The notes beneath the pieces were generated by a model. It worked only from the letters and a program-made list of their open reading frames with translations. It ran no database searches and was not told the DNA's origin. DNA of 64,000 nucleotides from Sphaerolaimus hirsutus (lineage: Eukaryota > Nematoda > Chromadorea > Monhysterida > Sphaerolaimidae). The translations under genes were made by a program, and so were the position numbers. The DNA lies in NCBI GenBank assembly GCA_964036195.1, contig OZ038455.1, forward strand, positions 12,417,855-12,481,854, in the 5' to 3' direction. This document shows, piece after piece, positions 4,104-59,900 of this stretch; positions within the stretch are counted from its first letter, which is position 1; each line of letters begins with the position of its first letter.

Positions 4104-6594
4104 ATGGCGCAAGATGAATCCATTTTGGGACAAATGCAAAGAATGAACGAAGCGCTAGAGCGGAATTTGGATGGAACTGCGCCACTAACGCACAATCAGA
4201 AGAGACAAATTTTAGCCGCTTTTTTGGCAGTCGGGAACACGTTGTTTTCGTATGATGTGGACAACGACGACGAAGAACAAGAGCAGGAACAGCAGAATGC
4301 CGCACAAGAACAGGGTGATCACGGCAGGAAAAAGTACATGACACCGTATTTACTAGAAAGGGCGCGCTCCAGGGGCAATTACTGGCGAGCTGTTATTGCC
4401 TGCAAGAACACCGATCCAGCATGGTTTTACAAACTGTGCAGGGTTCGTTGTTTCACAATTTCTGTTATTTACGTAAAATATACAGACGTATATAACATCA
4501 CTTACTGTGTTGTGACATTTTCATGTTATTGTTTACAACAACATTGCAATCGAACAGTAAACTGATATTTATGAATGAACTCAGTTTACCGATAACGTTC
4601 ACAATGATTACAAATTAATTACAGCTGTGGCCAACTGAATTCGAACAGCTGCACGCGATGCTTACAGCTGTCGACCCTGAAACTGGTGAACAGTACCTGA
4701 GAACACGAGATGAAAGAAGACACATCGCTGTAGTGACAACAGAAATGCGACTGTTTTACTTTCTGTATACATGCGCAAACGGCCGGGAAGTTGAAGATTG
4801 TGCCGGCCAGTCACAGGTGATACCATTTTTCATGCTTTTAGATTGCTTTATAGTTCATTGTATTTTGGAAAAACATTTACAGATTTCCGGCGCTACGATT
4901 AGAACGATTATTGACGAAGTGTCCACCGGAATAGTGAAAGTTTTGAAGGACCACTTGAAACCTATGGGGAGTGATTTAGGGCAAATGAAAGATTTCGCGC
5001 AGCAATACTGGAAACTGTGGCAGATGCCGAACTGTGTGGGGAGTCTGGATGGCAAACACATCCGTATTCGCAAACCCGCTGGTAAGTACATATCATTTTA
5101 CGCATTCTACTTTTGCCCTCATGTGTGTTGTTTCCAGTAAACATAAACATGGTGAGTCGTATGCAACGTCACGGTAAACTAAGCGTCGCATTTGCGACGC
5201 TTGCGACGCTTGCGACGCGTGCGTCGCCTTCAATCAGAAATAGTCGCCAGTTTACCAAGGTTGCAAATTTTTTTGTGAAAACGTCGCTTTTCGTCGCATT
5301 TTGCGTCGCAAACGTCGCAAAATCGTCGCTTTTGCTTGAGTTTAACCGCAACCCCCACCGATTTGAAAGTAACTTCATTTGGGTCATGGGAATGTTGTGC
5401 AAATGATTTTTGGATGTACTTGTAGAGAAAAAAATTGCGCTTCTTCTGACGTACCTGGCTTCTCATAAAAGTGATCCAAAAAAAAGTTATGATTTTTTTT
5501 AAAAAAGGGCCAAATTGCGCGACGAAATGGCGACGGTCTGGCGACGGTCTGGCGACTGTAGAAAAATGACTAAATTCACAGTGATGGGAAACTGTGCAGT
5601 GAGGTGGAAATGTTTACAGTTACAAAAGTAAATGAAAAACGCCTTGCAGAGGGTGGAACGAGATACTGGTGCTACAAGGGCTTCTCGTCGATTATACTGT
5701 TCATCAGCGCCAGCGCAGATTTGAAAATTCAGTACGTGGACATCGGTATGCCGGGGTCACAAGCAGATGGTGCTGTGCTGATCACGTCTGATTTCGGGCA
5801 GGATTTGATGTGAGTTTACATCCTTTTTGACATGTTCCAATGAGGTGCTATACATTTACACATGATAAAAGTGATACATTTACACAGACATGGCAGAATG
5901 CTTATGGCGCCACCGTGCTTGCTGCCCGGTGCAGATGCCAACGAACCTGCAAATACCATTCCGAGTTATTTTGTGGGTGATCAAGCGTTCGCGTTGCGCA
6001 AGTGGTGTATGGTGCCATATGCGCTGCATGCAGATGACAGCCAGCGACACTTCAACTATCGGTGTGTTTGAATATTGTGAAAGAAGCGTTGTTTGGTAAA
6101 ACTGAAATCTAAATTTGACTGCAACTACTGCAGCTTATCCCGAGCTAGGCGCACTGTCGAATGCGTCTTTGGTATTTTGGCTGGCAGATGGCGCATACTG
6201 CTGACCTGTATCGCGATGGAACCGCCGCGCGTACAAAGACTGGTTATGGCCTGTTGCCACCTGCACAATTGGCTGCGTGATATCCGCGGGGAAAGTGCTG
6301 CCAACCAATTTGATGAAAATGGCGATGAAAAACCACAAGATGACCCGAACGACACTGTTGAGCGAAATGTAAGTTTACCTTGCATATTCACTGTTACAAT
6401 TCAACATCACATAAATTCATTCCCATACACAGCTGCAGTGGCGACCAGTGTACGACAACATGGATACGATCGATAACGTGCCAATCCGAAGGGACGTTGA
6501 CGAAAGAGATGCGCGCCCCATCAGGGATGCAATCAAGGAGTGGATGATGACGGACGCCGGTCGTGTTCCGTGGGTGAATCCCGCTGACTGCTGA
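4104..6594 (+). CDS. PIF/Harbinger DDE transposase (HARBI1-like)
   Basis: Exons 4104-4442, 4625-4816, 4883-5081, 5650-5809, 5888-6061, 6134-6368, 6433-6594. All phases agree and the model gives 486 residues without a stop. It should cut and rejoin DNA at the element ends in the nucleus. The DDE nuclease core is recognisable: first Asp in SLDGKHI (end of exon 3), second Asp in VDIGMPGSQADG (exon 4), and the Glu in RTVECVFGILAGRWRIL (exon 6). The family signatures FVGDQAFALR and FNYRLSRARRTVE span the exon 5/6 junction, which confirms that splice. The N-terminal acidic, Gln-rich stretch (DDEEQEQEQQ) and the segment around WFYKLCRLWPTEF resemble N-terminal parts of other Harbinger transposases. 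Donor 1 is GTTCGT; the other donors include GTAAGT and GTGAGT. All three catalytic residues are present, so the copy may be active. Confidence 0.88.
5153..5580. other. Intron 3 of the transposase: no gene seen
   Basis: The stretch holds clusters of GCGACG/CGTCGC words in both orientations (about 5180-5335 and 5515-5560) that could fold back. The ORFs here are low-complexity readings of that repeat and I do not call them genes. Confidence 0.5.
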
Positions 6595-7086
6595 ATTTGC
6601 AACTACGTTGAATATAAAAATCAAACTGAAATATTTCCGTTGCAGTGGCAGTTAGCATTAAAGTGGCACTGGAATGGTAAACTGATGTAACAAATACAAA
6701 AAATTCATTTTCATGCTATCTGCTACAGCTACACTTCATTTTTCGATTGCAACCGGTTATAATGGTTGTTATGTAGTACACTGTCGTTGAATGGACAATT
6801 TTCATTCACTATTCGATTTTTGGCTGATTTTTTCTTTTTTAATTGTGATTAAATCATAATTCGCAAAGTCTTTCGTTTCACGCCGCGAAAAATTGTGTGA
6901 TGTGTGCAGCTAATGTTCCTCTTTCATGTGTGATTTTTTTTTCCGGATTCGGGCTTTCCGTTCACGTGCTAGTGATTTATTTGCGTTTAATTGAAATAAA
7001 ATCATAAAAAATCGAAAGTTTATATTTCATGTCCGCTGTGTACACCAATCGATAGCGCAAAGAAAACTGATAATTTAGAACGTTTC

Positions 7087-7092
7087 AATAAA
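7087..7092 (+). terminator. AATAAA poly(A) signal, candidate, for the transposase
   Basis: AATAAA on the plus strand, about 490 bases after the transposase stop; another AATAAA lies at 6995-7000. Both are inside the element. Which one is used cannot be told from the sequence. Confidence 0.35.
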
Positions 7093-7384
7093 CGAAAAAA
7101 CGTAACAGGTGATTTTATAAAAATTTATTTCCACAAAAAAATGATAAATTCAATAAAAAATCCAATGTTGCACTTAAAAATATTTTAAAAATTTTGACAA
7201 CATCTACACAACGTACTGTACACGATGACGCAAAAAAATTGCATAAACAATGCTCCGTTCTTCCACAATTAAAGAAATTAGAAATTAATGTTTACAGCGT
7301 AAATTCACATCACAGGCAAACTTGAAAAAAATAAAGATGGCGGCCTAAACTCCGCCCACTTTTACTATGCGTGAATTTAGCCGG

Positions 7385-7449
7385 TAAACTAAAAAATGGA
7401 GTTTACCGCCAGTAAACTGAAAACGCCAGTAAACTAGTGTGCGCGGGGC
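7385..7449 (-). repeat. Harbinger right terminal inverted repeat
   Basis: Contains three spaced copies of the GTTTACTG/CAGTAAAC motif ending in CTAGTGTGCGCGGGGCC, the inverted counterpart of the window's left end. The end falls only about 290 bases before the GPCR start codon. Confidence 0.8.
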
Positions 7450-7737
7450 CATTGTGCATTATTGCGTAATCTAAAAAATTTATTATTGTTCCGTGTAATG
7501 GGGTCGATCAAACAATGATCAATTGAGGCGTCCGATCTATCTACTAATTGGTTTTCATCCCAAAATATGGTTGACAAAATGGCAATTTTTGTCGTCACAA
7601 CAAATTCGTGTAAATACCGCCTAATGATAGAAATATCGTGCAAACACCCAACGTTTACACAAAGAAATGGACTATTCGCAGATTGTAGAGATGGAACTTC
7701 AAAATTATTCTCTGTCATAATTAGAGTAATAACCGGA

Positions 7738-10700
7738 ATGGAATACATCCACGATGTGCCCATTCTGGGCAAAACAATCATAGCAATCATATTCGTTATT
7801 CTAATTTTACTAGCATCGTCTGGCAACTTATTAGTGTGCGCAGCTATATTTGTCGACAGGAAATTGCGGAATGGCAGCGAGAATTTGTTTTTGTTGTCGT
7901 TGGCAGTGTCCGATTTGTTGGTGTCGGTTTTGGTGATGATTTTCGCCGCCGTCAACGATCTCAGCGGCGAGTGGCATTTCGGCGCGGTGAGTTGCAGTTT
8001 TGAAGGGTTGAATTGATCATGGACAGGTATGTCAACAGTCCAGTAAACACTTTGACGATTTTTGCGGGGGTGCACAGATACGCACATCTGCCCGCGCAGC
8101 GCAATGACATTAGTGAAGTGAGTGAAGTGAAAAAAGTTCACTAATGTCATTCCGCAACTTTTTTCACTTTACTCATATCTGAAAATCATTTGAAAAAGTG
8201 TCAAGTGAAAAAAACGGCCAAATGTGCGTAACGGGCAGATGTGCGTATCAGGACTGCCCCGATTTTTGCATCCTCTGAGCGAAATAATTTAAAAAGAATA
8301 AATTGGGGTACAGCTGTGCCTATATTTTACTTGTCTATGAGGATTCTAAATAGGTATATAAAATAATGAGTGCATTCAATGCATAAATATCATAATGTAC
8401 CATGAATAATGCACCATGGACCAATGGCCCTGCGCACACTACCGTAGTTTTCACACGAAATTTTGAAAACTCATAAATGAGTTTTGAACATGTTTGAGTT
8501 TTCCACAGTAAGTCATTTTTTATCTGTGTCAACTGCAGTTTATGGCCACCTCATTGTAGAAAACTCAATTTAAGCTTTAAGCTGATTTGTGAGTTTTCGA
8601 AGTTTCGTGTGAAAACTAGTGTGCGCAGGTACATTGGATTACCTTTTCACTGAATTATTTGCGCAAAACGCGCAAGTGAGCTTATTTTGTGAGCAAATGG
8701 TTCTTTTTAAAATTGCTGAAAAATGGTTGAAAAAATCCATTTTCCCAAAACTGATCAAAGTAAAGTAACCCTCATGCACACACAGGTCTACTGCAAACTG
8801 TGGGTCGCCTTCGACATCATGTGCTGCACGGCGAGCATTTTGAATCTGTGCGCCATTTCCTTGGACAGATATTGGCACGTTTCCAGCCCAATGGCCTATA
8901 TCATGCATGTCAACAGAAAGCGGATTTGCTACGCAATTGCCCTAGTTTGGCTGCTCAGTGCCGGACTGGGATTCTCGCAGATTGCTTTAGGTTTTGATGA
9001 CAAAATGGTTGGTTCAATGGTTTGGTTCAATTGTTAGGCAGAGGAAAAACAGAGCGGAATTGTGTGCAGCTGCACTAGAAAGAGACTTGCGTGGCCACGC
9101 TAGTGATGTAGAAATCGTTTTAGGGAATGTTCTAGTGGTGGCCGTGGCTCTTTTGTTTTAGCGTCAGCGTCAGACACTTTTGTTCGCCATAAATATAAAA
9201 ATAACCTCGCGTTTTCTGCACCCCAGCGCCTCGCAAGCGCCATCACAGTTTTGACTTTGGCGCTAGCGCCAGGAACCCTGGCGCTTTTACATACACATCA
9301 TTACACATCATCACATTACATCACTGGCCGCCACATGCCCGCCTCCTACTTTCTGTGCACATGAGCTTTCCTTCTGAACCCTTCATCGGTGACTTTTGGC
9401 AAGTAGCCAGCCGCACCCGCGCAGCCGTCGAACGAGTGCGTGTTGCGTCTCGACCCCATATTCGCGACCGTGTCCAGCGCGTTGTCCTTCTTCTTGCCCT
9501 GCATCGTGATGGTGATCCTGTACACGAAGCTGTACCTGATCGCCAAGGCGCAAGCCAGGTCTATAAGGGCGCAATTGAAGGGTCTCACGGGTGGATTGTT
9601 GCTGGTGCACGCGGTCACCGGGCCAGGAGCCATGTGCGGGTGAGTGAGTGTAGATTTTGAGTTGACTATTCGATCGATTTTGTGATTTGTTGTCCTCTTT
9701 CTTGGTGAGCAGTTGTGGAATATTGGACGAGTGAATTCAAATTCTCAATTGATGTTGCTATATAGGTATCTTGAACGTTGCGGTTCGGCTTTGTAACTCG
9801 CCCCCTAGAAACCTAATTACGAAGTTGATATAACAGTTAGAATTGAAAAATCATGTTTGCGGAGGATTATTTTTGAGCAAGAGTTTTGTTTAAAAAGAAT
9901 GAGAAGATAATGAGTCGACAAATATTAATTTAGGTACTCAGAAATTCGTACCTATTATAATAATAACTTCATTGTGTCAAAAGATCAGCGCGATTGATTG
10001 CTTTTTAAAAGATTTCTTCAAAAAAATTCAAAACATTTGCGCCAATACTGTAGTACCCACATCCTTTCAACCCCTGAAAACCAATACCTAACCCTCTCAA
10101 TCTTCACCCTTACTGTCCCTTTGAATAACCCCTAAATGTCCAGCCGCTTATTACGTCTGTGCACCTGCAACATGTGTTTCCGGTGAGAAAAAGCGCGCAC
10201 GTTCTTTTCATTTTTCACCAGATTTAAGGTTTATTAAAATGTTCACATTTGAAATGGCATGAGCCACCTTCAGACAGCATAATTTTGCATTTTGCTTTTT
10301 TCGGGTTAACAATGAGCCTGCTACTTTTTACATTTTGCACATTTTACGTTAATATTTTCTAATACATCTATTCAAATATTAGGTTCGAAAGAAAGTTCTT
10401 TCCAACTCCACCTGAAACAAAGTTCTAGAGTCGGAAAATACTTTATTTCTAACCTAAATATGTGTATTTTCTGATCATTCCGGTTGAGAAAGATGTCACG
10501 GAAGGCTTGAATCAATGCGCACAGTGTGTTCGCTAAAATATTTGAGTATCCAAGCAGGTGTACGCATTCAAGCCTTTTGGTCAATTTCAATTCAAGAGCA
10601 ACAAAACGCACTTTGCAAACACGACACACACCCGGACAGGTCGAGCGACACGTTGGCGAGCCAGGCGCCGAGCAACGGGCGCGCCACCAGCCTCCGATCC

Positions 10701-13700
10701 AACATCCGTTCGGCGCTCTTCAGACAGCAACAAAAGCGCACCCAGGTGCCACTCACGGACCCTGTAAAATGCCCTGTAGAATGTCAACTGTCATGAAATG
10801 TTGCAAATTTCATGTAAAATGTGCATAAATGTAAAATGAGCACTTTACATGACTTTCCTCACTTTGCGTGACATTTTCCATTTTACAGGACATTTTACAT
10901 GACTTTTGACGCTTTGCATGACATTTGACATTTTCCAGGTCATTTCACAGGGTCCGGTAGTGCCTCCAGGAGAAAGAATCTGAAGCGAGCGAACACAAGG
11001 CCAGGGTCACTTTGGGCGTCATCATGGGCACCTTCCTACTCTGCTGGTTGCCCTTCTTCATCGTCAACGTGATCAGGGGCTACATGCCGCACCTGGTGCC
11101 CATCATCTGGTTCCAGTCGCTCACTTGGCTAGGTTATGCGAATTCAAGTGCGAATCCGGTCATCTACTCGATTTTCAATAGAGACTTCAGGAGGGCTTTT
11201 AAGGCCATTTTGACAAGGTCGTGCGGCTGCTGCACCGGGCCCATTCATGGTGAGTGTTTTTCGGTGCCAACCTGATTACCGTATTTCCTCGAAATACCCC
11301 CCTCGTTTGACCCCCCCCCCTCTCGAGACCACTATGAAACAATCACCCCCCCCCCCTCGAAATACCCCCCCCCCAAGATTGAGTGTAAAGAGAACGTACA
11401 TGACAAATACTGCAGTATGTGTTCTGCGTAGTGTAGAACACACGTTAAAACAGTGTCGGAATCACGTTAGAACAATGTTTATACCATCTACGTACTAATA
11501 TAAGGAGTCTACAGGAGTCTATACATGTCTATACATGTCAGTTATTGATGCATTTTTCTACCCCAGCGCACATCACAAACAACGATTTTGTTCAGGGATT
11601 TCAAAAAATTTCTTGCGAAATAATAACCCCCCCCTCGAAATACCCCCCCCCCCTCTCGGGAGCACTATGAAACAATCACCCCCCGGGGGGTATTTCGAGG
11701 AAATACGGTATTTGTGATTTTGTCAAACCGGAAATAAATAGAAACTTGTTGCGAAAATCTGTCCAATAAGACGGAATTCACATTGTACAGAGATGATTAA
11801 AAACATTATTTTAAATGCCCACACCAGGCGCTTTCCGCGGTGCTTAACGCCCGCCGCAGTTTTTTCCCTTTATTCCGCCTGAATTGAAGCTCTCGTCTCA
11901 TATTTAGCTCGCGATGCAGGGCACCTTAACACCCAGAAACTCAGCGCAAACAGCTTCGCAACATTGCGCTGTCTATCTTATGTACCTCACAGCTGCCCAA
12001 GACCGACTGTGCGGCTTGCGGAACAGAGCCGAGCTGAACCACATGGCCGTGGGCAACGAGCACGATGCGCCCAATGCTGACAACTGCAGCAGACAGCCGT
12101 CGGCCTGCTATGACCAAGTCGGTTGGGACTAGTGATGGAAAAGCGCCATGGCGCTGGCGCCTGGCGCTAGCGCCAAACAAAAAAGCGCCATGGCGCTTTT
12201 GGCGCTTGGCGCCATTTTCCTGTGGCGCTATTGGCGCCTGGCGCCAGCATTTTAAATGGCGCCAAAAAAGCGCCAACGATAACGATAAAATTTGTCCAAT
12301 ACTGTTGTAATACTAAGTGTATAATGTGTTTATTTTTACTTAAAGTTGTTTATATTTGGATAGTGAGTAAATGTGCCTTTGTTTGCCCCCTAAATATTTA
12401 CTGGTATTTATTATTTATAATGATCAGTTTTCAGAGAATATTTACATGATACTTTTTTCAAAGTATCAGACTAAACAATTGGTTGGTGATCTAAATCACT
12501 ATTTTGAGTGTATTTATTCTAATAGAAGATTGCTGTTATATTTTTTGTCAACATTTTACCTGCCATTTTTTTAGAGGTGCCGTTCTATTGGAAGCTGCCA
12601 TTCTATTTTTTCACACATTTTTCATTTGCACATTGTTTTATTTTTAATGAAACTCACAAATTGATTCAATATCACAGCATTGATTTGAAATTTAATATCT
12701 AAATATTTGAATGCTCTGAATGTTCTCACCATACATTTTTATTTTTTTGTGTTTTGGCACCCTTTCAATGTAATATCACCTGCCGTTCTATTGGAGGCTG
12801 CCATTCTATTGTTTTCGTGAGTGCAAAAACGTGTTAAAACCCGCGGTTCTATTGAAGGTGCCATTCTATTGGAGGTATGCCATTCTATTGGAAGAAATAC
12901 GATTACAGTATACTCCAGTCACTTAACACCCTGCACGCGTGGTTCCCGCTGGAAGCGTGCCAAAGATTTTTTTCGCATCCGATTTTCATAAAAAGTAGAA
13001 AATGTCATCTCTGTTACAACGCTATACGTTATAAATATCATTCACAACGATGTTTTTTCATCTTTTATACAAAAATCGCATGCTTTATCATCATTGGCAC
13101 GTTTCCAACGTGAGACATAAATGAGTGCGAGGGCAGAGTATCATGTCCGCCTAGTATACTTTGTAGTAAATTCTTTTCACTGAACACTATAACATCGGTA
13201 GTATGGGCACATATTTATGTTAGATTTACCTATATACTCATTATTCTACCCAAAATTGCTAAAATTTTTTTTGGCGCTGGCGCTATTGGCGCTTGGCGCC
13301 ATTGCCGTCTGGCGCCATTGGCGCTTGGCGCCGAGCTCCAGAAAAGCGCCATGGCGCTTTTGGCGCTTGGCGCCATTTTGCTCTGGCGCCATTGGCGCTT
13401 GGCGCTGGGGGGTGGAAAAGCGCCATGGCGCTTTTGGCGCTTGGCGCCAAAACCTTGGCGCTTTTTCCATCACTAGTTGGGACACGTCAGTGGCCACGGG
13501 CGTTTTTTCAACATTGTATTGCGATATATAGCGTTATAAAGTACAGCCACTTGCCTGGTATATCTGTATACATTGAGTCATAACTAGTGATGGAATGGCG
13601 CCGTGGTGCTGGCGCCCTTTAATGGCGCCAGCGCCATGGCGCCGTTGTTTCTGGCGCCCGGCGCAGTTTTTTCAGATGGCGCCTGACGCCATTTTTTCCT

Positions 13701-22200: not shown

Positions 22201-25200
22201 TGTACTTACACACCTATTTTTAGCTGTTTTTCTCTGCTTTTAGCTATTTTTCCCCCTTTTCTTCCTTCTATACCTCGGAAAAGCCTGTATATTGAACCCC
22301 CGCGAACCGAAAACTTTTTTTTCCAGCTATCTATCCCTCCGGAGTAGCGATTTACTATCTATATGAACCCCCACGGGGGTCCAAATCTACAAAACCCCTG
22401 GTGTAACATTATCTTCTAACTCTCGCAAAACACCGGGTGGTGCGCCACACACACACACACTGATATTTTGGGTTATGGTTCGAAAGTTTTTTGATGTGGA
22501 CACTAGGGTTCAAACGGGACCGCGGTCCCGGTACATGGTTCGGCAAAAAGTCGGGACTGGGGCGGTCCCGGTCCCGACACCCCAGTCCCGGTCCCGGTCC
22601 CGGTCCCGACAATTAAAAAAGCCAGTCCCGGTCCCGGTCCCGGTCCCGGTCCCGACCACCCAGTCCCGGTCCCGGTCCCGGAATTTTATAGCGGTCCCGA
22701 CTAGGGTTGGAAAAAAAACGTTTTTTTTTTAACTCGATGTTTTTTTTTAAAAAAAACGTTTTTTTTAAAAGCTCCCAGATATGACCTAGTGTCAACATAT
22801 ATAGGTATATCAGACACTGGCAATACTCTGTGATGTTCAATATGACCATATAATGGCTGTGGAGCCATAGGATAGCATTATAAGTGGTGATTTGTGTCAA
22901 AAATATCCATTTTTCGTCGACATATCGTTCGTATATCGCCTTATAGTCGAATGTTCGTGACTTCAGGTAAAGTTTGGCACGGAATGGTGATCAAACAAGG
23001 TTATAAAAGGAGGTTGTTACTTTGGGAGTGAAGTTACACACTGTGGAGGTACATGGAAGCACATTACCTCAATATTATATATTACAGCAACATATGTCGG
23101 CTTATTCACCCATGGTAGCACATAGAAATGGATGTTTTGATACTAAAAATGCAACAAAACCAATGAAAACAACCACCAATGTCAATTTGTGTGTGAAATT
23201 GCGCGCTTGCGCGCAAAAATTTTGCAAAATACCTAGTGCTTAGTACTAAAAATTTCGGCCGATGTTTTTTAAAAAAAAAAAAACATTTCGGACGTCATGT
23301 TTTTTTAAAAAAAAAACGTTTTTTTTTTTTAAAAAAAAAACGTTAAAAAAAACATCGGCCAACCCTAGTCCCGACAAGGGATGGAAAAAACGTATTTATC
23401 ATAAAATTTTGCCAGAAATGGCACTTTTCTAAAGCGATTTTGTAGGAACATCTAAAAAAATTTTGCGCGCAAGCGCGCAAATACCCAGCCAATGATTACT
23501 ATGTATTTTTTCATAATGTGACAGCGTTAGAAAGGTCCCCAACATGATTCTAGTACGAAATATAGATATATAAAGATACCTATATTGTAGACGTTGGCGC
23601 CAATGCCAGCGCCAATACTGGCATGGCGTTGGCACCTACAACTGGCGCCGCCCCCCCCCTCCCAAAAAATCCTGCGTACATTGCATTTCATCATATATTC
23701 GCAACTTCAAGTGAAGATGGCAATGGAATACTGCTTGAATAATGTTATAAGAAAAGGCTAATACATTGAGAGTGGTCCTTCACACAGTGGAGGTGTGTGG
23801 TACAACATTGGCTGGATATTACATACCAATAAGGTTCAAACAATACCGCGGCGCCGGTACCTGGTTCGGCAAATCCCAGTCCCGGTCCGGACCCCCCAGT
23901 CCCGGTCCCGGTCCCGACAATTGAAAAAAGCCAGTCCCGGTCCCGGTCCCGACCCCCCAGTCCCGGTCCCGGTCCCGACATTAGAAAATTTCTGGTCCCG
24001 GTCCCGGTCCGAAAAACTGGTCCCGTTTGAACCCTAGTGGACACCTGGTGCCAGCAGGTGCCAGCAGACCCCAGATCCTGTAAAATCTGTCATGTCAAGA
24101 CCCCGTCATGTGTATCCAAATCTTATTCCATACTATCCAAAACTTATGTTTTTGTATCAATATCTTCGCAGGGGTCTCCAAGATTTTGGCCCTCGCGGGG
24201 GCTGGATAGATAGCAAATCGCTCCTCCCGAGGGATAGATAGCTGAAAAATTTTTCTGGGAGGGCTGGGGGGGCTTGGGGGGGGCTCGCGGGGGCAAAATA
24301 TATAGGCTTTTTCAGTGCATAGAAGGCCGAAAGGGGCAAAAAATCGCTAGTAATTGGTTAAAAGTGGCTAAAAGTAGGTTTAAAATGGCTAAAAACAGGC
24401 ATACAACCATGCATATAGCTGGAGAGCACGATTTTGAAGGTGAAAAACTATAAAAAGGTACGAAAATTAGTGATTTTGAGCGAAAATTGGGGGAAAATTT
24501 CTCAAAAACCACTCCAGATAGATAGATAGCTGAGCGATTTGGGGGGGGGTGTTTGGGGGTAGTAGCCAAAAAATTTGCCTCGGGATAGATAGATAAATAG
24601 CTGAGCGGCCTCTGGGATAGATAGATAGCTGGCGGATTTGGGGGGGTCGCAGCCCCCCCCCCCTAGGAGACCCTGGACACAAACAACAACAAAAGATTTG
24701 CATATTATAGAAAAATATTTGGATACACATTCCACTTTACATGGTGTTTTACACGTGCAATTTTAGAGGGTCTGGGACTGCCCCTAGTATGATAAAGTTG
24801 ACAAAATTGCTTAAAGGACTAGGAATTCCTTTAAAACCCCTGAAATGCTTGCAACCGGTGCAATTTGAATAGGCCAAAACGCTAACCTTGATCTGCTCCT
24901 CGTTCATGTTTCGCATTTTCTCTTGAAAATCATCGTCAGACTCCAATGCCTTGACAACTTCTTGCAAATATCGCTCATACGCCAAATTGAGCATCTGAAA
25001 AAAATTGACAGAATTCTTCTATTATTCTATAACATTGAGCACGGTGATTTTATTGAGACAACACAACTGTTGTATGAAAGGTCGCAAGTTCAAATCGAGC
25101 ATCGCGATTTTTGAATAAACAATAGACATAGGCGTAAAAAAGTTGATGCTTTCAAATACATATACCGCATTGTATTACCTCGAATTACAACCCCCCCCGT

Positions 25201-46000: not shown

Positions 46001-49000
46001 GTGCTGGGACAGGTGGGTGGGGGCTTTTTTGATGGGTGGTTTTGGGCCCGCACGCAGTAGTTGACATCAAGATTCGTGTCAACTGAATGTCAAATAAAAC
46101 ACAAAAAATTAAAAGCCTCTCATTTAACAAAAAAAAAGGAAATTGAGTGTCGCGATATGAAAGTTACCATGCTCTTTCAGATAGGAAAATTGAAATCACA
46201 TAATTAACCAAAATTTAGTCGACACTAATTTTAATGTCCACTAGTGTGTGTGGGCACGCTCAGGCTGGCGCCATGGGTGCGCTAACAAAATTATTTGGAA
46301 TAAGTTCATTTAGTTTTGGGTGTCTTTATTTTGTTGCTTATTGGATATTATTAGTTGGCGTTTTTGCCACGGTAAGCAATAAAAACTGAATTGTGTCGTT
46401 TAAATAGTATTCATACCAGACACAACACCTTTGCTTGGTCTGATTACATTGATCGTTTTTTTATTGATCATTGATATGTACATTATTCTTCCATAATTGG
46501 GGTGGGGGGACCATTCAAGTGGGGGAATTATTTTTCTCTAAACGTCTAACAGGGGGGAATTATCCGAGTAAATACGGTATTCGTAATTGTTGATTTCGAC
46601 GCAATTCTCTCACCCACGAAGTAGTGAAATTGTTTTAATTCCTGGATTTACGTTTTACGTTGCCGGATGTCAGTTTGTCAGTTGTCGCCAGTGGTTAATT
46701 AAACGAAATCTTTGTGTCAAAATGTGCGTAACGTCTACGTGCGTGTCAAACGATACGTGACCGAAACTAGTGTTGTTGAAATTCTATAAACATAATCGAC
46801 CGCCTTTGATACTTTACGCTCGTCTGTGTATTGACGCGTGCATCTGCGTTTTGCTGTACCTGTCGGTGCCATCTCGCGCACACAAAACGTAAATACTTTG
46901 TCTAGGTGCAGTTGCGCGCGTACTCACGTCTCTGGGTACTGGGTACTGGGTACTCACTCGAGCTTCCAGTTTTTTCTGGAAGTACTCGTGGGTTTTTTTA
47001 CGTTTTGTGGATAGTTTGGAATGCTGTGTGCGGGTGGTGGATTATCCGTAGATGTTATTACAAAGTATTTAAGTATTTATATACACCTGCTTACGTTGGG
47101 ATGTGTTTACCTGCAGTATTTACTTTGCGCACGTATCTATGATTACTAAGCACCCCAATTCTAACAGTAAACAGCAACAACTGTTTCATTTCTCAATTGT
47201 TGAGGGGGTTTATTTGCATCTCAAACGCTGTATCGATGTTTGCAGAAAGCGCGCGGAACATTTATTCTAAATTCGAACATGTGGCATAAATGCGAAATTT
47301 CACTGTTGGAATAAATTTCGTGTAACGAGGGATGAATTTCAATGAATGAAGGGGGTTTTGTAAAATAAATTGAATTGTATTGTAAAATATACGAAATGGA
47401 AGCTGGAATCGCGTGAAGACGCTAGGTATACAGAATTTTTGAGTTTTCCGTCCGACCTTTTTTGGACCCGGAACTACAAGTGCGGGTATAATAAATCTAG
47501 CGCACTGACGCCTGTTTAAGTACGAAAAGTTAGGCTTACAATTGAATTGCATATGGGACTGGAAATTCCCTCAAACTTTTTGCGATGGGCCTCTCGATCC
47601 AAAAATTCAAATTTTCGAGAAATTCAAATCTCTACGTTCGCCAAACTCCGTATAGAACCCACTCTCTATAGAACCCCGCTCGAAAACTGTCTGCCATTTT
47701 ACAGGGCATTTTACATCACTTTTGACAATTTGCATGATATTTGACATTCTAAACGGCACTTTACAGGGTCTGGGAGTGCACCCGGGTTATGGAATATTGC
47801 GGCCGTATTTCCACGTCACACTACCTGTATTAACCAGTAAATACGTAACCCATTTTTCATCGGAGCGTAATAAATTGGTTTTGTGAAAAATTCGCCTACC
47901 TATTCAAAGCATTTTACCTGCCTACGTGCAGCAAAAATGCGAAAAATTGTAAAGTGTTTTTGTGTGTCACGTGAACGTTGAAAGCTACACGTTGATAGAA
48001 ATCGTAGAATCGTAAACAAGTCAATTATTGATTGTGGGTGCTATTTTGCACGTGATTTTGTGCATTTTGATGAGGATGGTGCAAATAAAGCATTTATACC
48101 ATCTACAAAGGTAGTATATCTGACCGTCACTGCGTTTTTCAAATTGCACGATTTTCAAAAATGAAATTGATTTTTGATCTTCTGTCAAATTGATAGATCG
48201 ATTGGAAAAATGCGAATTTTTTCAAATCTGACTTTTTCAAGAAATCGTTTAAAAAATCACTTGTCAACCCTGACCGTCGATTATCTCTTTGATAAATTTT
48301 TCCCTGCGTTTGTCGAACTAAAAGTTATTTTCTCAATTGCTTTCTTTTGTTTGCACGCGTACAGTGCGCGCTGATCAAGATCCAGGTGGGGAGCCCCGCA
48401 TCAAAATTGGGAAAATGTTATTGTAAATACAATGATACATAATCACCGACAAATGTCACGCTATTTTACACTGTGTTTTTGCACGCTCATTCTAGTTTTC
48501 AAATATTATCAGAAAACTACATCTTATTTCATATGGAGTTAGTGAATTACAGTAATCAGTTTGAATTTTCTAAGGAAGCAGCACTTGGATCGTTGCCAAG
48601 TTGTTCCTTTGTCCAGCTGTGTATCACATGGCTGGCCTTCCGTTAAACATTGATGGGGATCACGTGCCCTTGGCTGCATTTCATGCATTTGCTGACTGCG
48701 TGCTTCGCAAAACAACGTTTTTCATTTGCTTGTTATGGGTTTTTTTCCTCACATTTGGTCATGTGTCAAGTCACATGGAAATGATTTATGATATTTATGT
48801 GGAACAAATCGGAAAAGGGTGTAGGATTTGGAGCTAAAAGATATTCTTTTTAAATATATAAATATGTAATTGGAAATCTGGGTCGGGCTGATGCCCCTGT
48901 GTCCTTGGCACTGCTATTTTCAGGGACAAATATTGCGCATGCAAATACATCTCGTAGATCTTTTTGACATTGAATCGTGTCATTCCCAATGACTTCGTTT

Positions 49001-55093: not shown

Positions 55094-58000
55094 TCAAGTA
55101 AGCACGGGCACCCTCTGGTAGATGCTGTAGCCGCTGCCGTGCCGCCGGGCGTCCGGGTGGGCCACCTCGTAGGCGGTGGCGCAATGCCGGCTGCGCTCGT
55201 TGACCGCGAAGCCGGCGCAGAACCGGTCGCCGCTGCACAGCGTCGCGCAGTCGGACACCGCCTGGTGCTGGCGCACGAGCACAGCTGCGTGCCGCTGTGA
55301 GGCTAGATGTGGGGCTGATCGACGGGGTGTTCAGGGGGACTGGCGAAAAGATATGCTTCTCGTTGAGTACCTAGATCACCGACCGGGCTCTGGGATTGAT
55401 AAATAGCTGGAGCGTTTGCGGGGGGGGGGCGCTACCCCCCCCCCCCAATCGCCCCCCCTACTATATCCATGCAACCCAACCATTGAACCGGCACCGTGCT
55501 GCAACTGACCGGTGATCTGGGCGTCCTCCACCTGAAATATTGACCAGTTTGAATGGGGGTGTTCAAAAAAAGTTTAAAAAACGCAATTACCAACAGGCCA
55601 TTCATCCTCAATTCCGTCCAACTTGTAAAACCTGTGCGGCGCTGACGTGTCTGCGATGCGATGCCTTTTGTTTTGGCAATTTTGATGACAAAAACTCAGC
55701 AAGGATTGAGTAAACTTCTACTCATTTGGAAATGCCGGGCTTTGTGCGAATACAGTAGTCTAACGATAGTCAATGAAATGCGTAACACTAGCGGAACACT
55801 AAAGCCTCTGCATCTTCTGAGAGCGCGAAATGAAACACGCAGCCGTAGTCATCGTCACTTATTTTTACGCACATTGGCGCGGCAAACACTAGTCTACTGC
55901 CAGTAAACGAAAAATTGATCGAAGCACTTATCGCCCACATCGAAGTTACCCCCCCCCCCCCCCCAACCCGCCCAGCTATACTCGGGCGACATTACAGCCT
56001 ACATTTTTCTGGGGTAACACTCCATCATGACGTCACAACCGCAGTCCGCAGTGAACTGCGGCTGACTGGTGGTAATCCCAAGCAAGTAAAGTGTCAAATG
56101 TAAAGTCAAATGCAAAGTCAAATGTAAAGTAAAGTGTCAATTGTGTATCCAAATCTTATTTGATGACATAAGATTTGGATACAAAAACATAAGATTTGGA
56201 TATGGAAAATATGATTTGGATACACAATTGACACTTTACTTTACATTTCACTTCACTTCACATTTGAATCTACTTTACAGGGCTTGGGACCACCCCCTGA
56301 ACCGGTTCAGGATGAAGTGGAGTGGAGTGGAGTGGAGAGTCAGTTCATAAGTTTTCAGTTGGCTGTCTGCCAGCCAAAGACATAAATCATATCTATTTGT
56401 AGAGTATCATGTCTGCTGAGTATATCTATCTATCCTGGAGGCTGCTCAGCTATCTATCTATCCCGGAGGCAAAATTTGTGGCTACCACCTCTGAACCCCC
56501 CCCCCCCAAATCTCCCAGCTATCTACCTATCTGGAGCGATTTTTGAGAAACTATTCCCCAATTTGCACTCAAAATCGCTTTTTTGTACCTTTTTTATAGA
56601 TTTTCACTTCCAAAATCATAGTTCTGGTTCCTATTTGCCTTTTTTCAGCTATTTTTAGTACTAAAATGCTCTTGTATACCCGTTTTGAGCTTCTTTTCAC
56701 CTACTTTTAGCGATTTTTCTTCCTTCTACGCCTCGAAAAAGCCTATATATCTGTCACCCAGGTTGTTTCATACATAATGTGTGCAGAGCTCATGCCGATG
56801 GCGGATTATGCGGAATTAAGTCCTGATCCGGCGCAAATGACCGCTTCAAAGGGCAACCGCACTCCGCCTCACCGATGCATACCGTAATCTCAAATCGACC
56901 CTTTTTCCCCCTAACGAAATTTTTCAACTATCTATCCCTCTGGAGGAGCGATTAGCTATGTATCTATGGCTCCGCACCTGTACGCACAAACGCCCGGCGC
57001 GCACAAACGCCCGGCACGCACAAAATGAAAGTCCGGTACGCACAAACGCCGGTATGCACAAAACTGTAGCTGTGTGCGTGCCGCACAATGTGCGTGCCAG
57101 CCGTTTGTGCGGGCCCGTCATATGTGCGTGTGTGGCTTGTATCCTAGCTGGCTCCTAGGTTCAAACAGGATTGACTTTTTGGGATCGGGATCGGGATTGG
57201 CTTTTGAGATTTCGGGATTGGGATTGACCTTTCGGGATCGGGATCGGGATTGGCTTTTGAGATTTCTGGGTCGGGATTTACCTTTCAGGATCGGGATCGG
57301 GCTTGAGATTGGCATTTTTCGGGATTGGGATTGTAAAAAATTCTCATACTGAAGGATATTGTCTACTTAACTGCAAAAATGGGCTTAAAACACTTTTAAA
57401 AAAGTTTTTCATTTGACTTTTCAATCTTTTTACCGCTTTTGGCGCTTTTTTCTAGTAATAAAATGAAAAGTCATGTGACAAACAAATACTTAATTTCAAA
57501 ATTAAGCGATCATTATGCTGGCAGTTCGCGGCTGGTAATTAAAAAAATTGCGGCCAGCGCCAAATTCTCCCAAATGCCATGATGCCGGTTTTTTTGGAAG
57601 CATCCAGGTGCTCATGTATGGGGGGCAAACACAAAGTGGGGGGGTGTGAAAATCCCCTGCTCGGTACGCACAAATGACTGGTACGCACAAATGACCGGTA
57701 CGCACAAATGACCAGAGCATCAGATTTGTGCGTACCGGGCATTTGTTTGTGGCGGGCTCAGTTTTGTGCATGCCGGGCATTTGTGCGCGCCGGGCATTTG
57801 TGCGTAGGAGGCCTGGCCTGTATCTATCCGGGTCAGGCCTATTATGCATGTAAACCCATTATGCATCTAGACCCATTATAGACAAATTATAGCTCCAGGG
57901 GTGAGAAAGGGGGCGGGTAACCCCACCTCAAACTGCTTAGCTATTCATCTATTTGTACCTGAGGCAAATTTTTGGTGTTACTTTCCCCTGAACAGCCCCC

Positions 58001-59900
58001 CCCCCCCTACAAATTGCCTAGCTATCTAGCTATCTGGAGCACTTTTGAGCAATTTGAGCCTAATTTTCACCCAAAGTTACTTATTTTCATAGTTTTTATA
58101 GATTTTCACCTTTAAAATCACTAGGTCATGTGTTTTATTGCATATTTTCAGCATGCCAGGTATAGTTAAATGTGTGCTGGTTCTAGATGCATAATGAGTT
58201 TAGATGCATAATGGCACAGGCACATCTATCCAACCACTCGGAGGGTCAAAATTCAAGATACCCCTGTCCGGCGCTGTTGTCTAGGAAGGAAGTCTCACTA
58301 ATATTCACTAACTGTAATAGTACTGGCAAATGTAGAATTTTTGAGCCGCAGGGTTGTGTCTGATCCGTTGAGTTGACCCTACGTATTAAAAATATTAGTT
58401 TGGCATTTTGCGTGTGTACTAGTAGTATTTAATGTAAATATATGTATGATGTATCCCCTTTCAAGTGCCGAAATAATTTCATGGCAGAATTAATGATATT
58501 TTCTATGATTCTCGAATAAGTTTCGGTTTAAATTTTCCTCTATGTTCCATTAACAAAGCCTCATCAAGCTTTAGCAAAAGACTTTAAACTCATCAATCAG
58601 AAAACTACCTCACCAAACTATATCTACCGTATTTCCTCGAAATACCCCCAGGGGATTTATTTTTCAGAGTGATAAATTTGAGGGGGGTATTTCTAGGGAC
58701 AGTATTTCGACGGGGGGGGGGGGGGATTCGCCAGAAATTTTTTGAACTCCCAGTACTAAGAACGTACGCAGACGTAGACAAATGCAACAAAAACCACCAT
58801 GCATAAGAGTCTACAGCCTTATATACCATATATACTTGAATAATTCCCCCGCCTTGATTAATTCCCCCCTCGAATAATTCCTCCCTCTTTAACGAGTGAG
58901 GAAAAAAAAATCCCCCCCCCCCCTCGAATAAGGCATATGATACAGTTTTTGCATCCAATTTGAACAAAAATTGCACGTTATTTAGTAAATGAAGCATATT
59001 TCATGAAATCAGTTAATAAAAACATGCTTGCAAACTTTTGACGAAATAATAATTCCCCCCCCTAGAATAATTTCCCCCTCGAATCGCCCCCCCCCCTCAA
59101 AAAAGTCTGACGACAAAAATAATTCCCTGGGGGGATTATTCGAGTATATACGGTAAGTATGTAGATGGTATAAACTATGTTCTAACATAACACAATCATT
59201 GTTTTAAACGCCCGGGTCACAAACACCAGCTTTTCTCATTGACGTTCTCTTTACACTCAATTGGGAGGCGGGTATTTCGAGGGGGGTTTATTCATTCATA
59301 GTGCCCATTTTGAGGGGGGGGGGGATATTTCGAGAAAACACGGTAACAAAACTTACACTTTCAGACACTTATTATAGGATATAATGTGATTTACTCAAAA
59401 TCACATTTTATTATAGGATATAATGTGATTTACTCAAAATCACATTTTGTGGGCTTGTGAATTTTCAGAATTATAGTCCCAATTGTGTTTAGGTGTACTT
59501 TTTGCGATCAAACGAACCTTGCAAGCAGCCAGCATATGTGCCAGACGGATGTCCACTGTCCCAGGGGATGGCATACTTTGTTTCTGGCATAGTAAACACT
59601 TGCATTTCTGGGTCAGTCCTAGACCCTGTAAAATCCCCCGTAAGATGTAAAATGTCATGCAAAGTGTCAAAAGTAATGTAAAATGCCCTGAATAGTGACA
59701 ACCGAGTTACCATTTTACTGGGCATTTTCCATGACCTTTGACATATTGCATGACATTTGACATTTGACTGGGCATTCATAGGGTCTGGGATTGGCACCTG
59801 GAAGCCAGTAGTAACTGTATGGTTGGTGGTACCAGCCAGCCGGCCTCCCCGCAGCGCTCGTGTAGTGTTTGATGCCGACCCACGGACAGGTCGCGCCTGA
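55094..59900 (-). CDS. 3' part of an unrecognised gene with a PAN/apple-like end
   Basis: Minus-strand exons 59900-59798, 59607-59499, 55631-55595, 55531-55481, 55294-55094 (TGA), with agreeing phases; about 166 residues. Upstream exons are missing or lie beyond the window. First exon contains CPWVGIKHYTSAAG and WYHQPYSYYWLP; the second PETKYAIPWDSGHPSGTYAG. The last has Cys spacing DCATLCSGDRFCAGFAVNE then RHCATAYEV, as in PAN/apple or related extracellular cysteine modules, so a secreted or surface protein is possible. I cannot name the gene. The intron between the first two exons is exactly a MITE. The second exon's donor (GTACAC at 59498) is chosen because it gives the phase needed by the next exon; GTTCGT slightly upstream is the alternative. 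Donors of exons 3 and 4 are GTTGGT and GTTGGG. Exon bodies have high third-position GC, like the other genes here. Confidence 0.55.
55880..55916. repeat. Solo Harbinger-type end
   Basis: CAAACACTAGTCTACTGCCA then GTAAAC resembles the terminal repeat of the element at 1-7449. No partner end found nearby. Confidence 0.4.
56068..56299. mobile_element. GACCCTGTAAAATG-family MITE, diverged
   Basis: GGTGGTAATCCCAAGCAAGT at the left; complement of the right end is CAGGGGGTGGTCCCAAGCCC. Inside are repeats of AATGTAAAGT and ATAAGATTTGGATA in both directions. Lies in the large intron of the minus-strand gene but does not coincide with splice sites. Confidence 0.6.
56420..56960. mobile_element. Degraded CAGGGGTCTCC-family element
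   Basis: CAGCTATCTATCTATCCCGG, the C-run and TCCCAGCTATCTACCTATCT match 16176-16663, as does the CTCTGGAGGAGCGATTAGCT right part. No duplication identified. Confidence 0.5.
56970..57125. repeat. Inverted cluster of GCACAAACGCCCGG units
   Basis: ACGCACAAACGCCCGGC units repeated in one direction, then GCCAGCCGTTTGTGCGGGCC in the other. A matching cluster is at 57655-57810. Confidence 0.6.
57158..57330. repeat. Left half of a TAGGTTCAAACAGGATT hAT copy
   Basis: TAGGTTCAAACAGGATTGAC followed by GGGATCGGGATCGGGATTGG arrays, as in 31503-31998. No right end found. Confidence 0.6.
57655..57810. repeat. GGTACGCACAAATGACC units with inverted partners
   Basis: Three near-identical units GGTACGCACAAATGACC at about 57663-57713, then inverted GTGCGTACCGGGCATTTGT units up to about 57810, able to fold back. 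Confidence 0.6.
57895..58265. mobile_element. Diverged element of the CAGGGGT...ACCCCTG group
   Basis: CAGGGGTGAGAAAGGGGG at the left, AAGATACCCCTG at the right, CTAGCTATCTGGAGCACTTT and TTCACCTTTAAAATCACTAG inside. Flanking 8-mers do not match. ATTATGCATCTAGA motifs repeat around it. Confidence 0.5.
58624..59343. mobile_element. Cluster of CCGTATTTCCTCGAAATA/ATTCGAGTATATACGG MITEs
   Basis: One copy starts TACCGTATTTCCTCGAAATA at about 58625. A second runs from ATATACTTGAATAATTCCCC (58848) to ATTATTCGAGTATATACGGTA (59153). A right end, ATATTTCGAGAAAACACGGTA, closes at 59343. C/G runs fill the interiors. Confidence 0.6.
59385..59460. repeat. Short tandem duplication of a 43-bp unit
   Basis: TATAGGATATAATGTGATTT then ACTCAAAATCACATTTTAT is repeated twice in a row. 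A related TTACTCAAAATCGCATTTTG occurs at about 63257. Confidence 0.7.
59608..59797 (-). mobile_element. Second MITE that is exactly an intron (introner-like)
   Basis: On the minus strand the intron starts GTGCCAATCCCAGACCCTAT and ends TTTACAGGGTCTAGGACTGA then CCCAG. It is the same family as 10746-10969 by ends and by inner words (GTCATGCAATATGTCAAAGG, GGGCATTTTACATTAC). The exons on either side join in one frame (phase 1). Confidence 0.7.

Follow-up and report, generated by a model that had tools for sequence, protein, structure and literature searches.

Can a mobile element be, from one end to the other, an intron of the gene into which it has inserted? The question arose from a first-pass annotation of the window, that is, the whole stretch of 64,000 nucleotides analysed here (C7:12417855-12481854 of a 348-Mb assembly). 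It had assigned an intron of a GPCR gene (10746-10969) and an intron of a minus-strand gene (59797-59608) to the same inverted-repeat family, and had proposed that this mobile MITE family was itself the intron. The observation is confirmed: both copies are present at these positions, they match each other in BLAST, and the family occurs genome-wide far beyond chance. As to the function proposed, we estimate at about 0.8 the probability that the MITE acts as an introner, copies with the donor end upstream being spliced exactly and the duplicated CWG target providing the 3′ end. The CWG duplication, the derivation of the AG from it, the TG ends of copies inserted at CTG and the asymmetry of the element ends were all absent from the first-pass annotation.

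An abundant MITE family with two different ends

Copies a and b of the window (Table 1) align with each other over most of their length (BLAST E values of 1e-19 and 2e-18) and both are long inverted repeats. Copy a, which is flanked by CACCCAG on the left and by GAGAAAGAA on the right (GAGAAA), is an imperfect palindrome nearly end to end, and its RNA is predicted to fold into a hairpin of -90.3 kcal/mol (z -11.2). The ends of the MITE, GTGCCAGTCCCAGACCCTGTAAAA at the donor side and GGGGCAGTCCCAGACCCTGTAAAA at the acceptor side (reverse complement), are asymmetric. In the consensus, the donor end (GTGCCAGTCCCAGACCCTGTAAAATG) and the acceptor end read inwards (GGGGCAGTCCCAGACCCTGTAAAATG) differ at positions 2 and 4 only, so that the former starts with GTGCC and the latter, on its own strand, with GGGGC. 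Because the type of each end was named by position 2, the sole independent evidence of asymmetry is position 4, where C has a frequency of 0.92 in donor ends versus 0.86 for G in acceptor ends.

Table 1. Positions in the window of the introner copies, of their neighbouring exons and of related features
Position	Strand	Feature	Basis
10629..10745	+	GPCR exon coding for intracellular loop 3, on the 5′ side of the introner, start provisional; ends with CAG 10743-10745, the left TSD copy	joined frame matches 7tm_1 across the junction
10746..10969	+	introner copy a, putatively the whole intron, phase 0; donor end GTGCCACTCACGGACCCTG, acceptor end ...CAGGGTCCGGTAGTGCCTC; right TSD CAG 10967-10969	
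10764..10769	+	inner donor-like GTAAAA, mostly paired within the predicted hairpin stem	sequence and fold
10949..10950	+	inner AG located 19 nt before the 3′ end, in a paired part of the predicted stem	sequence and fold
10970..11249	+	GPCR exon with TM6-TM7, starts GAG AAA GAA; followed by GTGAGT at 11250, exon end putative	7tm_1, PDB aminergic receptors
24062..24784	+	copy d, divergent or composite; ends match partly; other repeats inside	
47692..47787	-	copy c, one half of an element (the donor end), with no match to the second end	
56069..56296	+	sister-subfamily copy e, GTGGTAATCCCAAGC...GGGACCACCCC; TSD CTG 56066-56068 and 56297-56299	
57979..58095	+	paralogous empty site for the sister-subfamily element L045:274: repeat copy without the element, single CTG	BLAST alignment
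59608..59797	-	introner copy b, 190 nt including the right CAG, between CTTCCAG and AAATGC; predicted hairpin -82.7 kcal/mol	

Genome-wide, the 23-mer of the donor end has 16,619 matches with at most two mismatches, while the reversed-pattern control has none. The loci that were fetched are a non-random sample, consisting of the best matches to copy a or of the first matches to the donor pattern on C1. Together with the window they contain 107 elements in which both ends can be recognised; one donor end is combined with one acceptor end in 92 of these (90 of 104 before the last loci were added), and identical flanks of the CNG form accompany 63 of the 107. The sampled copies measure between 116 and 443 bp. 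Regional runs of the same strand on C1 had suggested a replication or gene-cluster effect, an explanation that was rejected, both strands being mixed there among the matches listed.

The target site duplication is a 3-bp CWG. Where both ends are exact (C1:0-13.8 Mb, n=46), the flanking pairs are CAG/CAG in 22 cases, CTG/CTG in 18, CTG/CAG in five and CAG/CTG in one, that is, 40 of the 46 pairs are CAG/CAG or CTG/CTG; a few CGG/CGG copies are also present in the family. For one element of the sister subfamily, several paralogous empty sites were found, some of them within the window, and each carries a single CTG. Being short, bounded by terminal inverted repeats and target duplications, present in many copies and accompanied by empty sites, the family is a non-autonomous TIR DNA transposon (MITE). 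Three further copies in the window had been listed by the first-pass annotation; they turn out to be a half copy (c), a member of the sister subfamily (e) and a divergent or composite copy (d). Its remark that some copies are located away from exons is correct. The motif TATCCAAATCTTAT lies within copies d and e, which suggests that another repeat is nested inside them. A separate repeat, with words like CGTATTTCCTCGAAATACCCCCC, follows each of the two introner copies at a distance of about 300 bp on the downstream side, at 11275-11375 and 59310-59345 of the window.

Coding sequence on both sides of the element

Does the coding sequence continue from one side of the element to the other? In the case of copy a, 7tm_1 is matched across the junction (5e-11) and aminergic receptors are matched in PDB, in agreement with the previous identification of the gene as a GPCR. 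The gene around copy b had been called 'PAN-like', a name for which we found no basis: the joined frame is open, but it has neither a Pfam nor a PDB match. The GPCR is one of two near-identical duplicates about 66 kb apart, L001 (C7:12428600) and L002 (C7:12362285), and the introner of L002 is the same one, 50 nt shorter.

A total of 28 sense-strand joined frames from 27 elements, copy b included, were chosen as the best-looking ones and compared with Pfam at the curated cut-off. Ten of them passed, with matches to 7tm_1, LRR_6, Peptidase_C2 with Calpain_III, HSP70, CHGN (twice), Abhydro_lipase, Xan_ur_permease and Oscp1 (twice), and the other 18 had no match above the cut-off. In eight of the ten (7tm_1, HSP70, both CHGN, Xan_ur_permease, both Oscp1 and Abhydro_lipase) a single domain match runs through the junction. 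The calpain L092 has domains above the cut-off on both sides of the junction, and in the LRR case L043 the right side alone is above it, the left side reaching 17.2 of the 23.4 bits. In each of the junction-spanning cases (HSP70, CHGN, the SLC23-type permease, OSCP1, the lipase and the GPCR) the donor end lies upstream, and the ends of the element are, to the base, the ends of a splice-compatible intron. Copies do coincide with candidate splice sites, at the level of the sequence, a point on which the first-pass annotation had let its proposal depend. Translations that read through from the GPCR and HSP70 exons into the element soon reach stop codons. Among the antisense joined frames only one of 12 passed Pfam (GDT1, L081), with a match that ends before the junction is reached.

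A codon model trained on the Pfam-supported segments only was then applied to the 75 other elements. At a score of 2, 21 elements were coding-like in the sense orientation versus six in antisense (p 0.006; permuted flanks 6.6 versus 4.5), and at a score of 5 these numbers were 11 and 1 (permuted flanks 2.5 versus 1.2). Together with the orientation of the Pfam cases, this test indicates that the sampled exonic copies mostly have the donor end upstream. The length of the open reading frame across the junction was barely above that of permuted flanks; with flanks that are themselves GC-rich and open, this measure has little power to discriminate. About a fifth to a third of the sampled copies seem to be exonic; extrapolated from this non-random sample, we infer that there may be thousands of exonic copies genome-wide. 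The OSCP1-like gene L023 (C1:3590503-3593665) carries two introners or more within about 1 kb, with CTG as the target of one and CAG as that of another.

One may argue that introns were already present and that the MITE landed inside them, or took their place, near their ends, which would make the introns older than the element, and the copies that lie away from exons are in line with this possibility. Against it, the elements start and stop, to the base, where a splice-compatible intron would, a duplication has been left behind, and paralogous genes are contiguous at the same sites. At the site where the HSP70 gene L003 has its introner, five paralogous places show uninterrupted coding sequence (for one of the five the match is limited to residues 2 to 64), and the genes at C2:2868 kb and C2:11200 kb are split at this very residue. 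On C3, two further HSP70 genes are interrupted eight codons farther downstream. The HSP70 introners thus occupy two different sites, at a CTG after ERL in L003 and L101 and at a CAG after DAAKNQ in L102 and L103, and an HSP70 paralog on C13 has a plain single CTG and a plain single CAG at these two places. Likewise, five other places, with 47-58% identity, match the SLC23 gene L078 without interruption at its introner site. An origin in older introns is thus very unlikely, and what would be expected of an insertion into exonic sequence with intron gain is found in these genes. L102 (C3:29308920-29309370) and L103 share their introner and have different ends, GT...GG in the former and GC...AG in the latter.

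Three pairs of duplicated genes carry the introner in both members. Around the junction, L003 and L101 differ by three synonymous and no nonsynonymous changes (67 codons), L102 and L103 by four and none (68 codons), and the GPCR genes L001 and L002 by five and none (129 codons). Pooled, this makes 12 synonymous and no nonsynonymous differences (p 1.7e-5 for the HSP70 pairs pooled), which indicates that the genes are under purifying selection with the element inside. By comparison, 17 of 185 aligned sites differ in the CTG/CTG intron shared by L003 and L101. The unbroken frames and the lack of nonsynonymous changes speak, indirectly, for removal of the element from transcripts. Coding continuity across several copies, paralogs free of the intron at the same sites and the strand bias of exonic copies thus support, from genomic sequence, the proposal that a mobile MITE family is itself the intron.

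CAG and CTG targets and the predicted 3′ end of the intron

The target triplet decides how an exactly bounded intron would end. A CAG target gives at once an exact GT-AG intron, in which GT comes from the element and AG from the duplicated target. Both dinucleotides had been attributed to the element termini by the first-pass annotation; this is right for the GT, whereas the AG belongs to the right-hand copy of the duplication. Its suggestion that a short target duplication forms the exon junction agrees with the CWG duplications and the empty sites. When the target is CTG, the sole exact intron beginning with GT is GT-TG, and CTG/CTG copies are found in HSP70, CHGN, SLC23 and OSCP1. By the same rule, the introner of the HSP70 gene L102 (CGG) would end in GG and that of L014 (CCG, no Pfam match) in CG.

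Over the whole genome, the triplet has A, T or C+G as its middle base in 1907, 1667 and 237 donor ends and in 1581, 1017 and 118 acceptor ends, respectively, so that the acceptor side is shifted towards CAG (chi2 45.3, p 1.4e-10), while CTG is present at about 44% of donor ends, conserved genes included. Such a shift is expected if AG is the better end and TG is tolerated. Discordant pairs point in the same direction, CTG/CAG outnumbering CAG/CTG by five to one in the 46-pair sample (p 0.22) and by 12 to three in a larger non-random sample (p 0.035); one CHGN intron and the lipase intron are among the CTG/CAG copies.

Could the elements be removed from somatic DNA instead of from RNA, as are the internal eliminated sequences of ciliates, or by a precise excision of Harbinger type? 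Precise removal leaving one copy of the target would suit CAG, CTG and CGG alike, and there is a precedent in mPing, for which the part of PMC4561436 considered here reports precise repair of the excision via its duplication. Yet in those exonic copies that are supported it is the donor end that comes first in gene sense, and the triplet is richer in A on the acceptor side than on the donor side, neither of which is expected for DNA excision, and the assembly, presumably made from somatic tissue, holds the copies. We regard this explanation as extremely unlikely.

A second explanation accepts splicing of CAG copies, or of copies repaired to CAG, and takes CTG-target copies to be unspliced, their host genes being broken, silent or polymorphic. 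The depletion of CTG on the acceptor side relative to the donor side is what would be expected if CTG is worse than CAG, and TG acceptors are described as very rare elsewhere, and never constitutive, in the part of PMC2374985 that we consulted. Nevertheless, CTG/CTG copies lie within the conserved domains of HSP70, CHGN, SLC23 and OSCP1; L003 and L101 have diverged in their shared CTG/CTG intron while keeping their exons free of nonsynonymous change; and CTG/CTG copies, which make up 18 of the 46 with exact ends, show no visible depletion in the coding set (4/13 versus 13/62 in the rest). That CTG copies in general go unspliced is therefore unlikely.

Alternatively, CTG copies might be spliced at other canonical GT and AG sites within the element, with residues added to the protein. 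The inner GTAAAA and TTTTACAG look nearer to consensus than the outer sites do. We looked for pairs of a GT in the first 30 nt and an AG in the last 60 nt of each element, a check of frame alone in which the extra pieces were taken without regard to stop codons. At least one frame-keeping pair exists in 12 of 22 CTG/CTG elements (10 of 22 when the AG is restricted to the last 35 nt), including the OSCP1 gene L023, to which it would add 45 nt, and about 37 of 100 listed CTG acceptor ends, counted by eye, read GGGAGTG, with an AG 9 nt upstream that is in frame with the outer donor. In the remaining 10 of the 22, no such pair keeps the frame within these limits, and these include HSP70 L003, CHGN L056:2545 and SLC23 L078. 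In the common form of the element the donor offsets 0, 6 and 18 all shift the frame when combined with an AG at 19 or 31, and the HSP70 and Oscp1 matches cross the junction without net gap. The inner sites are also predicted to be paired (mean 0.95 for the inner GT, found in 84 of 91 elements, and 0.97 for the inner AG, found in 72 of 91); the outer sites, with 0.64 for GT and 0.57 for WG (n=91), are more often paired than not. Use of inner sites as a general explanation is quite unlikely. Since 12 of the 22 elements do have a frame-keeping canonical alternative, we argue for obligate TG use in three conserved genes (HSP70, CHGN and SLC23) and not for all CTG copies.

The mechanism that we infer for exact splicing at the element ends would proceed as follows. 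A transposon inserts at CWG and produces the 3-bp duplication. If its donor end is upstream in gene sense, the spliceosome may use the GT at the first base of the element, and the duplicated CWG would then be the 3′ end, restoring the original mRNA exactly. A CAG target would yield a GT-AG intron at once, while exact splicing of a copy at CTG would produce a GT-TG intron; some copies have since acquired CAG as the acceptor-side triplet. The long hairpin probably conceals the inner canonical sites GTAAAA and TTTTACAG, brings the true ends together and leaves the outer GT and CWG for joining. The last AG of CTG/CTG elements is 19 nt upstream in 16 of 22 (the others at 9, in three, and at 17, 31 and 81), and this AG may serve the first splicing step, the exons then being joined at the WG.

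Relation to known introners and transposons

The family looks like a new variant of introners, known here from the genome sequence. Horizontal transfer of introners was reportedly the subject of a 2025 paper. In the part of the introner survey by Gozashti et al. 2022 considered here (PMC9860276), only two groups are recorded among animals and land plants; both are animals, and copepods are named. Several features of those introners are common to this family: intron similarity that reaches both splice boundaries, insertion into exons, TIRs and target duplications (in many of the families) and an mRNA length that is mostly unchanged, which here would follow from predicted splicing. As in some of those families, the element supplies one putative splice site and the duplication the other. 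By contrast, the CWG duplication and the predicted TG 3′ ends of this family are described nowhere in the portion of PMC9860276 consulted.

Which transposon could have mobilised it? The NuwaI group of PHIS (PIF/Harbinger-related) transposons is described, in the part of PMC4482050 at hand, as restricted to animals, with a 5′-CWG-3′ duplication and a TIR that usually starts with GGG. A CWG duplication and an acceptor end starting with GGGG match this group, whereas the donor TIR starts with GTGCC and the same part of PMC4482050 does not present NuwaI elements as introns. The family is perhaps derived from NuwaI, and a transposase of this type may be its partner. A transposase bounded by the ends of this family was not found among those whose ends were examined, namely the window's own transposon and two near-identical copies. 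DDE_Tnp_4 is abundant, with at least 163 matches when 150 of 306 candidates were scored, and most of the listed matches differ little in score or length, an indication that the family is young and abundant. The HARBI1-like DDE_Tnp_4 transposon of the window is a member of another family and was rejected as the mobilising partner, its terminus being different. This transposon (4136-7451; C7:12423491-12424123) has ordinary-looking introns in its transposase and a right end that reads TGGCCCCGCGCACACTAG inwards; its left end was not found.

Non-canonical introns with shared border triplets are also known from a larvacean tunicate, Fritillaria. In the tunicate mitochondrial code AGA stands for Gly. 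At conserved positions of the host's mitochondrial COX1, AGA stands for Ser, AAA for Lys and TGA for Trp, so that a tunicate host was rejected and a protostome is most likely; mitochondrial code 5, which fits protostomes, also fits cephalochordates and xenacoelomorphs. The 5′ site of the present introns is GT. Membership in the Fritillaria type, with its AG/AC and AG/AT introns, was rejected on both counts. In Fritillaria these two are the commonest non-canonical classes; in them the 5′ splice site is often preceded by a YAY triplet, and YAY makes up the final three intron bases in almost all cases (PMC13326754, in the part considered). An animal host and a triplet shared between the 5′ flank and the intron end make it the closest animal parallel that we found, with the difference that TG 3′ ends are not described in that part of the source. 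The introner elements of Amoebophrya have inverted repeats forming a hairpin, direct repeats of 3-5 nt across exon/intron borders and non-canonical ends (PMC7789003, as far as consulted), all of which have counterparts here; Amoebophrya is a dinoflagellate whose elements, on the same source, are without a family-specific inverted repeat, whereas here one family has near-constant ends and GT.

For the TG end itself, the nearest precedent is in human U2 introns. The TG 3′ splice sites found there all have an AG within 28 nt and are used as alternatives to AG, never constitutively, and they are interpreted as an AG recognised in step one and a TG chosen in step two (PMC2374985, in the portion cited above). 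A TG with a nearby AG is predicted here too. The human TG is always an alternative to AG, while in at least three conserved genes of this animal TG appears to be the only frame-preserving end within the element.

Taken in its widest form, the proposal is that one transposon family made thousands of introns in this animal, a large share of them obligate GT-TG introns with a 3′ end set by the target site and the hairpin rather than by an AG, that repair from TG to AG is in progress, and that a GG to GT change in a GGG terminus gave rise to the donor end, with one end of the transposon thereby turned into a 5′ splice site and the other into an acceptor. We put this forward tentatively, as a reading whose chances fall a little short of even. 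A very abundant introner family with intron-free paralogs at the same sites would allow the birth of introns to be studied in an animal. The split between CAG and CTG targets would be a natural experiment, repeated over many otherwise similar introns, on how strictly the animal spliceosome needs a 3′ AG, and it offers a plausible route by which non-AG introns may arise and later be repaired.
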